Source: Betaproteobacteria bacterium (GTDB taxonomy: Bacteria > Pseudomonadota > Gammaproteobacteria > Burkholderiales > Rhodocyclaceae). From it: DNA of 64,000 bases. A program made the translations under genes and the position numbers. Numbering within the stretch: the stretch's first letter is position 1; each line of letters begins with the position of its first letter. The stretch is from NCBI GenBank assembly GCA_009781175.1, contig WQYQ01000015.1, positions 1 through 64,000 of the forward strand, read 5' to 3'. The notes under the pieces were generated by a model, which was given only the letters and a program-made list of their open reading frames with translations, was not told the DNA's origin and made no database searches. Of this stretch, positions 8,460 to 10,302 are shown piece by piece.

Positions 8460-9008
8460 TCAATCGAAATAAGCCGCTTCGGCAAAGCTTTTTCCGGCCG
8501 CATCTTTCGCCGACACCTTCGGTTCGATGCCCACCAATGGCCATTCGATGCCCAGCACGGGATCGTCCCAGCGAATGCAATGCTCCACCTCGGGCATGTA
8601 GTAGTCCGTCGTTTTATACAGAAAATCCGCGGAGTCGGAGAGCACAACGAAACCATGCGCAAAGCCGGGCGGAATCCAGAATTGCCTGTGATTATCGCCG
8701 CTGAGTTCCACGCCAACCCATTTGCCGAAATGAGGACTGGACTTCCGCACATCCACCGCGACGTCGAATACCAAACCCGCAGTCACCCGCACGAGTTTGC
8801 CTTGCGCGTGCGGCATCTGATAATGCAGCCCCCTCAGTACACCACGCCCCGAACGGGAATGGTTGTCCTGGACGAATTCGACGTTCAAACCAGTGCTTTC
8901 CCGAAATTGGCGCGCATTAAAGCTTTCCATAAAAAACCCGCGCGCATCGCCAAATACCCGAGGTTCAATAATCAGCAATTCTGGAATTGCCGTTTGAATT
9001 ATTTTCAT
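8460..9008 (-). CDS. rfbC: dTDP-4-dehydrorhamnose 3,5-epimerase
   Basis: EPRVFGDARGFFMESFN, QDNHSRSGRGVLRGLHYQ; ATG at 9008 (upstream GTG at 9017 also possible). Confidence 0.95.
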   Translation of the reverse strand: MKIIQTAIPELLIIEPRVFGDARGFFMESFNARQFRESTGLNVEFVQDNHSRSGRGVLRGLHYQMPHAQGKLVRVTAGLVFDVAVDVRKSSPHFGKWVGVELSGDNHRQFWIPPGFAHGFVVLSDSADFLYKTTDYYMPEVEHCIRWDDPVLGIEWPLVGIEPKVSAKDAAGKSFAEAAYFD

Positions 9009-9035
9009 TTTTATCACTCAATTCATCTATACATC

Positions 9036-9142
9036 TATAGTGAATCGCATGGAAATTTAGACGCGAAGACGAGCCGCAGACAGTACAAGTAGTACGTCAA
9101 GGCGAAGTCGACAAAGTATAAATTTTTATGCGATTTACTATA
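9036..9142. mobile_element. Correia/NEMIS-like miniature inverted-repeat element (107 bp)
   Basis: 24-bp terminal repeats (tatagtgaatcgcatggaaattta / tatagtaaatcgcataaaaattta, 21 of 24 identical) around gacgagccgcagacagtacaagtagtacgtcaaggcgaag. Confidence 0.8.
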
Positions 9143-9143
9143 G

Positions 9144-10247
9144 TTAGCCGCGCGCATCGCCCCAGCGCAGCGCAGAACAATCATCGCCGACATAAGTCGT
9201 ATTTCCAGAGCGGTCGACGCAGTATTGCGGCGAAACGATCATTTCAGAAAAATTCATCCCTTCGCCAATCCGCGTGTATTCAAACAGAATGCTGCGGATG
9301 ACCTTCGCGCGCGCACGGATGTGGCTGCCATGTCCAATCCAGGCGGGGCCGACGATCGCAACGCCCGGGTCGATGCGGACATTTGAACCGATATAAACCG
9401 GTCCGGTAATATCGACCCGATCCCATGCAATCGATGTATTCAGCCCAACCCACACGCCTGGCTTGACCTCCTTGCCCGGCACATTCATCCCTGCCACTTC
9501 ACCACGCATTACACGCTGCAACACCGTCCAATAGTCGGTCACGCGGCCGATGTCGATCCAGTGGAACGCATGTTTTTGCACATAAAACGGCAGCTTGCGT
9601 TCAACAAGCAGGGGGAACAGTTCCGAACCAATGTCGAAAACCCTCCCCGAAGGGATAAAGTCGAGCACCTCGGGTTCGAAAATATAGATGCCTGTACTGG
9701 CCAAAGTGGATTTGGCTTCCGCGGGCGCCGGTTTTTCCTGAAACGATTCGATGCGGCCGTTTTCATCCGCGACAACGATGCCGTAGTTGTTGACCGCATC
9801 GCGCGGCACGTCGAGCGCGACGACACTTGCGATCGCCCCCTTGGCGCGATGTTCTTCCAGGGCCGCCTGAATATCGAGATCGACCAGGGCGTCGCCGCAA
9901 AGCACAAGCGTCGTTTCGTCGAAGAAACCGCCGTGATCCTGAATCCGCTTCATCCCGCCCGCCGAGCCCATCGGCTTGGGTACGATGTCGCCCTGGTCGC
10001 GCACGCCTTCAAACGAGTAACCCAGTTCGACCCCCCAGCGGTGTCCATCGCCGAAGTAGCTTTCGATCTTGTAGTGATTGAACGCCACGTTGACCATGAT
10101 CTCGCGGATTCCATAGTGAGCGAGATATTCAATCAAATATTCCATCACCGGCCGGCCGAGAATCGGAATCATCGGTTTCGGGATATTTTTGGTCAAAGGC
10201 CGAACCCGCGTCCCCTGGCCCGCGGCCAGAATCATTCCTTTTGCCAT
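9144..10247 (-). CDS. NDP-sugar pyrophosphorylase with C-terminal hexapeptide repeats (mannose-1-phosphate guanylyltransferase-like)
   Basis: MILAAGQGTRVRPLTKNIPKPMIPI plus C-terminal VYIGSNVRIDPGVAIVGPAWIGHGSHI. Confidence 0.85.
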   Translation of the reverse strand: MAKGMILAAGQGTRVRPLTKNIPKPMIPILGRPVMEYLIEYLAHYGIREIMVNVAFNHYKIESYFGDGHRWGVELGYSFEGVRDQGDIVPKPMGSAGGMKRIQDHGGFFDETTLVLCGDALVDLDIQAALEEHRAKGAIASVVALDVPRDAVNNYGIVVADENGRIESFQEKPAPAEAKSTLASTGIYIFEPEVLDFIPSGRVFDIGSELFPLLVERKLPFYVQKHAFHWIDIGRVTDYWTVLQRVMRGEVAGMNVPGKEVKPGVWVGLNTSIAWDRVDITGPVYIGSNVRIDPGVAIVGPAWIGHGSHIRARAKVIRSILFEYTRIGEGMNFSEMIVSPQYCVDRSGNTTYVGDDCSALRWGDARG

Positions 10248-10302
10248 CGTTTGCACTACCTTTACCGAATATGCAAATGAGAAACTTCTGTTCTCACCTT
10301 AT

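Follow-up and report, generated by a model that had tools for sequence, protein, structure and literature searches.

A Correia-type sister MITE in a betaproteobacterial rml operon and its covarying hairpin core, present in repeats with other ends

The Correia elements of Neisseria (CREE/NEMIS) are among the described systems closest to the repeat analyzed here. They fall in a length class of 104 to 108 bp and carry a repeat that has been described from Neisseria alone (PMC2649163), for which 26-bp patterns have been published (PMC2911385). Transcripts carrying Correia elements are cleaved by RNase III (PMC2649163, PMC10969869), and both promoters and IHF sites have been reported in them, the published IHF site being confined to the long Correia form (PMC2649163). 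BOX elements of Streptococcus are reported to affect the genes near them and are predicted to form stem-loops (Croucher et al. 2011, PMC3049150), and BRE is a roughly 90-bp intergenic repeat with mobile features that occurs in Bordetella, Polaromonas, Rhodoferax, Acidovorax, and Delftia and appears on Northern blots as an RNA of about 80 nt, from the strand opposite to its neighbors; the BRE paper ties it to Correia or BOX through a list of small repeats and nothing beyond (Hot et al. 2011, PMC3110155). RUP and ERIC are, like the present element, MITEs of small size, for which effects at the RNA level have been reported or predicted; no match to the core described below was noticed in their sequences. 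Work on Correia and on BOX elements has long proceeded separately, each being treated as a species-specific repeat. In the open-licence literature, a scope outside which most subscription papers fall, we found no paper that joins Correia with BOX or reports a covarying core; prior notice is possible.

The element under study occupies positions 9036 to 9142 of the window (the whole 64-kb stretch of DNA that was analyzed) and is assigned to the plus strand by the orientation of its core. It is 107 bp long, and its left (9036 to 9059, plus strand; TATAGTGAATCGCATGGAAATTTA) and right (9119 to 9142, minus strand) terminal inverted repeats are identical at 21 of 24 positions, with TATAG and CTATA as the outermost letters, all in agreement with what a sequence-only reading had described. 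Measured at full extent, the inverted repeats span 28 nt (9035 to 9062 and 9116 to 9143) and are 86% complementary. The three differences between the 24-bp arms are all G.U pairs on the plus strand, because each sets a G on the left against an A in the complement of the right end. A TA flanks the element on both sides, the target site that had been proposed, and the host genome (a 3.3-Mb assembly, 94.7% complete) holds seven full-length copies at 78 to 100% identity (E of 1e-50 to 6e-17), which disposes of the objection, raised in advance, that the sequence might be single copy. The plus strand folds at -45.2 kcal/mol (z of -9.9) and the opposite strand at -32.9 kcal/mol; by copy number and fold, this is a repeat and not a chance sequence. 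It is short and multicopy, has terminal inverted repeats but no transposase gene, and shows both a TA target duplication and an empty site in the congeneric genome G730, all of which are features of a MITE (here, family A of the host genome).

Pfam assignments place the element in a minus-strand rml operon (RmlB, RmlD, RmlA, NTP_transferase, and RmlC), the rfb setting that had been suggested for it. A single base (9143) separates it from the TAA stop of the NDP-sugar pyrophosphorylase gene (NTP_transferase; 9144 to 10256, minus strand), and the ATG of rmlC/rfbC (dTDP-4-dehydrorhamnose 3,5-epimerase; 8460 to 9017, minus strand), which lies downstream in the operon, begins 27 nt past its other end, as first reported, with the ORF tool favoring a GTG 9 nt earlier. 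In G730, the same two genes are about 20 nt apart, the element is absent, and the C-terminus of the pyrophosphorylase is alike (WGDARA versus WGDARG), so the insertion caused no truncation of the upstream protein. Judged from the sequence and from the empty site of the congener, both genes flanking the element were left intact. The operon transcript carries the less well folding strand of the element, and a consensus scan of positions 8900 to 9300 recovered no sigma-70-like site, which leaves the proposed role of promoter donor unsupported here; no intrinsic terminator was found at the 9036 to 9142 site. At the rml locus, we expect a small effect, on rmlC, and no new promoter.

Such an element would be a non-autonomous MITE, mobilized in trans by a transposase that acts on its TATAGTG... 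ends and inserted at a TA site, in this case beside the pyrophosphorylase stop codon, with its neighbors intact. Within the host assembly, no full-length element with the same ends was found, and the end patterns yielded no IS-sized pair; a matching full-length element is a supporting feature of a MITE, not a strict requirement. An IS630-type autonomous partner, also proposed earlier, could be set aside for the host genome, in that the only IS630-family transposase locus of the host has different ends (GGCAATTAAGGGTT). This locus, on host contig C8 (L288), consists of an open IS630-family transposase frame with the GGCAATTAAGGGTT ends (988 to 2040), followed on the other strand by the remains of a second IS630-family copy, split over two frames (2062 to 2911).

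The resemblance of the core to that of Correia elements exceeds chance: aligned with a copy from Neisseria gonorrhoeae (L159), the element is identical at 73 of 108 positions (z of 9.7 versus shuffles), and blastn matches positions 1 to 70 of the query to N. gonorrhoeae at 78.6%. The element has in common with Correia elements the length class (107 bp, near the short form, as had been claimed), the TATAGTG tips, the TA target, the characteristic core and its orientation, the hairpin, and the multicopy state. Its ends are near-symmetric, which would bear on RNase III processing of a transcript. Unlike Correia elements, it has no 26-bp repeat of the GGATTAA type, its ends departing from the four published patterns at 9 to 15 positions where 3 mismatches were allowed, and it resides in another bacterial family, the host genome belonging to f1 and the Correia-bearing, Neisseria-like genomes G411, G627, and G567 to f225 of the same order, the family in which the true Correia ends occur. 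The terminal repeats differ and the host lies outside Neisseria, as the sequence-only reading had maintained. An end-generated promoter, a feature of some Correia copies only, was not found at 9036 to 9142 by the consensus scan. Because the 26-bp Correia repeat is absent, we call the element, from its sequence, a Correia-type sister MITE and not a Correia element; its earlier designation as a Correia/NEMIS-like MITE outside Neisseria stands as far as the Correia-type core and the host are concerned.

The core itself (9062 to 9116, plus strand) is matched by our covariance model R1 at 48.9 bits (E of 3.5e-11), the sole match in the window, and has the layout GCAGACA-stem-loop-stem-GGCAA within a strongly covarying outer stem. 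In this outer stem, P2, assigned from covariation and fold, the inner pairs join GCC (9073 to 9075) to GGC (9101 to 9103), and the next join GAC (9068 to 9070) to GTC (9107 to 9109). Within it lie the conserved internal-loop strands GCAGACA (9076 to 9082), whose register is fixed across MITE classes, and GTCAA (9096 to 9100; consensus GGCAA, the T at 9097 being a change of this copy), which enclose the apical hairpin P3, GTAC-AAGTA-GTAC (9083 to 9095). Across 76 non-redundant sequences, P2 shows 115 two-sided changes, compared with 44.6 +/- 5.2 in shuffled and at most 41 in slid alignments; outside the Burkholderiales, there are 49 versus 17.8 +/- 3.2 (28 distinct sequences), in an alignment fitted to the model and so biased that way. 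When the search pattern leaves P3 free, its arms are found to swap among GTAC/GTAC, GTGC/GCAC, and GTGT/ACAC (reversed control near 0). The loop strands GCAGACA and GGCAA are invariant while the sequence of P2 turns over, an invariance that is partly search selection because both search patterns require most of the loop letters. The covariation shows the core to be a conserved two-stem hairpin, with a covarying P2, a GCAGACA/GGCAA internal loop, and a P3 of GTAC-loop-GTAC. Rfam holds no family matching the 9036 to 9142 element, nor one matching the core at the other loci tried, which were of Correia, BOX-like, clostridial, and GAG-type origin.

The same core occurs in at least two further MITE families of the host genome, one of the type TTATTCCGTTTC... 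(loci L008 and L010) and the other of the type TTAGAGCCGCTMACAAAACC... (L009, L011 to L014, L017 to L022, and L025). As the exact pattern GCAGACAGTACN(3-8)GTACGGCAAG, it is present in 38 of 300 Burkholderiales genomes, representing 25 of 135 genera (the reversed pattern in none), and in just 3 of 369 genomes sampled across the class. The matches listed include Neisseria, Chromobacterium, Aquitalea, Vogesella, Cupriavidus, Janthinobacterium, Acidovorax, Rhodoferax, Methylotenera, and Accumulibacter, among others, as well as Avibacterium, Rappaport, Regiella, four streptococci, and several Clostridia MAGs. Whole-genome searches with R1, counted at E up to 1 so that a few of the matches are due to chance, returned 39 matches in the host, 111 in N. 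gonorrhoeae, 90 in Regiella, 19 in Avibacterium, 102 in Streptococcus sp. 121, 56 in S. thoraltensis, and 2 to 30 in Clostridia MAGs; the core-bearing repeats of these genomes are multicopy families. At E up to 0.001, R1 matches were present in 37 of 59 Streptococcus genomes. The consensus core was found in no phage.

Several types of ends flank the core: IS630-like TATAGTS/TATACTC ends; GAGNNGCTNACAAAAC ends, flanked by a duplicated TTA or TAA, which are IS5-like in their target repeats; and ends of the types ATTCCRTTTC and GCCATTTCAAA. From these ends and target repeats we infer the transposase assignments. The TATACTC type leads to BOX: a Streptococcus locus (L520) reads ...CTAGGAAGCTAGCC GCAGGCAGTACTTGAGTACGGCAAG GCGACGCTGACG... 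and matches 21 of the 22 bases of the BOXA1R primer (CTACGGCAAGGCGACGCTGACG), and therefore BOX elements (PMC3049150) carry the same hairpin core, located at the boxA-boxC junction in L520, L255, and L235. Unlike the 9036 to 9142 element, BOX elements have TATACTC ends, a longer outer stem, and often boxB arrays; the element has neither boxA/boxC nor ends of this type, its own being TATAGTGAATCGC, and the hairpin core alone is common to both. BRE, compared by its published description and not by sequence, is probably related to the core-bearing family, being a small intergenic repeat reported from Rhodoferax and Acidovorax, in which we find genomes that bear the core. A betaproteobacterial repeat of similar sort was thus already noticed in 2011 (PMC3110155); what appears to be new is the structured core shared across end types and phyla, the 9036 to 9142 element alone being a new MITE member.

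Which strand folds can be approached through mismatches in the paired regions. The wobble count in P2 (8 versus 2) is by itself too small, and therefore the end arms were used instead: on the core strand, they have 160 G.T versus 89 A.C mismatches, or 80 versus 36 when counted per copy. The p-values for this asymmetry are too small because the copies are related, and they are weakened also by mutation bias; the G.T excess could be partly mutational in origin. The wobble asymmetry, the G.U mismatches of the 9036 to 9142 copy, and the fold energies favor the core strand as the one that folds when single-stranded.

Most core-bearing copies are intergenic, and their position relative to genes is biased. 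In 76 of 233 flanked elements, a long frame on the opposite strand has its stop codon no more than 6 nt from the right end, as at 9036 to 9142, and in 19 of the 233, a same-strand stop lies at the left end (genes being taken here as long open frames, not annotation). In a first set, this abutment appeared almost wholly one-sided; fresh copies occur in both orientations (right versus left, 19 versus 9 of 56, a weaker contrast than in the first set), and we therefore reduced the claim to a bias. No stop-codon abutment of this kind was seen in 19 N. gonorrhoeae copies. Nor do 210 copies show a clear flanking U-run such as would mark an intrinsic terminator. A target site with many stop-codon letters can account for insertions at gene ends, but not for the side. 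For the side, we prefer the view that insertions placing the better-folding strand in the mRNA are selected against: the antisense bias at gene ends would arise because the strand carried by the host mRNA folds less well, so that such insertions are tolerated.

We consider it most likely, at a probability of roughly 0.6, that the core is transcribed and works as a hairpin recognized by an RNA factor of the host. The core strand would form the two-stem hairpin, more probably as RNA than as single-stranded DNA, and a factor such as RNase III may bind or cleave the transcribed hairpin, as reported for the Correia elements of Neisseria; an RNase III hairpin at 9036 to 9142 is plausible. Points that count against this explanation include the loop change at 9097, the lack of a transposase with matching ends in the host assembly, the share of the G.T excess that could be mutational, and the weaker right/left bias of the fresh set. 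The hairpin might instead act as single-stranded DNA in the mobility or copying of the element, being recognized, for example, when exposed on the lagging strand or in a cruciform, with effects on genes as by-products; the core does lie within mobile-looking repeats and moves with different end types, and G.T is the better-tolerated mismatch in DNA hairpins, too. We regard this as unlikely, since the ends and target duplications (TA; TTA/TAA) resemble ordinary DDE transposition of double-stranded DNA and since Northern blots reportedly show BRE, which is probably a relative, as a small RNA (PMC3110155).

Two further accounts appear less likely still. Were these ordinary decaying MITEs, with a core passed on vertically and by horizontal transfer but lacking any present function, the intergenic location of most copies and the loop change of the 9036 to 9142 copy would be in keeping, but the covariation is hard to reconcile with decay: P2 pairing is kept despite sequence turnover, the unpaired loop is fixed, and this holds in two separate sequence sets. 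Reported Neisseria promoters and IHF sites (PMC2649163) suggest a comparably improbable role for the core as a protein-binding site or promoter in double-stranded DNA. A duplex site would conserve sequence rather than pairing, which the covariation contradicts, no sigma-70-like site lies near the 9036 to 9142 copy, and the published IHF site is found solely in the long Correia form.

The structured RNA module, and not the ends, may be the conserved unit of mobile repeats across phyla (Beta- and Gammaproteobacteria, Streptococcus, and Clostridia, with several unrelated end types), such that Correia, BOX, and probably BRE would belong as variants to a single system and share a putative host partner, a proposal that we hold to be evenly balanced. 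If true, a shared hairpin core that covaries around a fixed loop would bring several unexplained repeat families under a single testable question: which conserved factor of bacteria recognizes the loop, and whether the benefit is the element's or the host's. Model R1 can be used for annotating many unannotated repeats.

Additional core-bearing sequences were encountered during these searches. A Desulfobulbus MAG (L214, 139 to 164; 74 model matches) matches the 9036 to 9142 family almost exactly in the core and inner flanks, which may reflect recent transfer or mis-binned contigs, and was left out as a further phylum. Oscillospiraceae MAGs (L206 and L213) contain multicopy hairpins with the same loop and A+T-rich stems but no clear MITE ends, and in the L213 genome, these are often situated at contig ends. 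A group of host copies has the apical stem GTGC/GCAC (GCAGACAGTGCTGTAGCACGGCAAG; G000:C1:113314, C5:78176, C6:117122, C7:62773, and others), those at C1:113314 and C7:62773 lying between ATTCCG-type ends. Core-bearing copies also form tandem arrays with a period of 106 to 110 bp, four copies at G573:C11:56591-56946 and three in Silvimonas (L147, 1838 to 2077), similar to the tandem copies of BRE reported in Bordetella.
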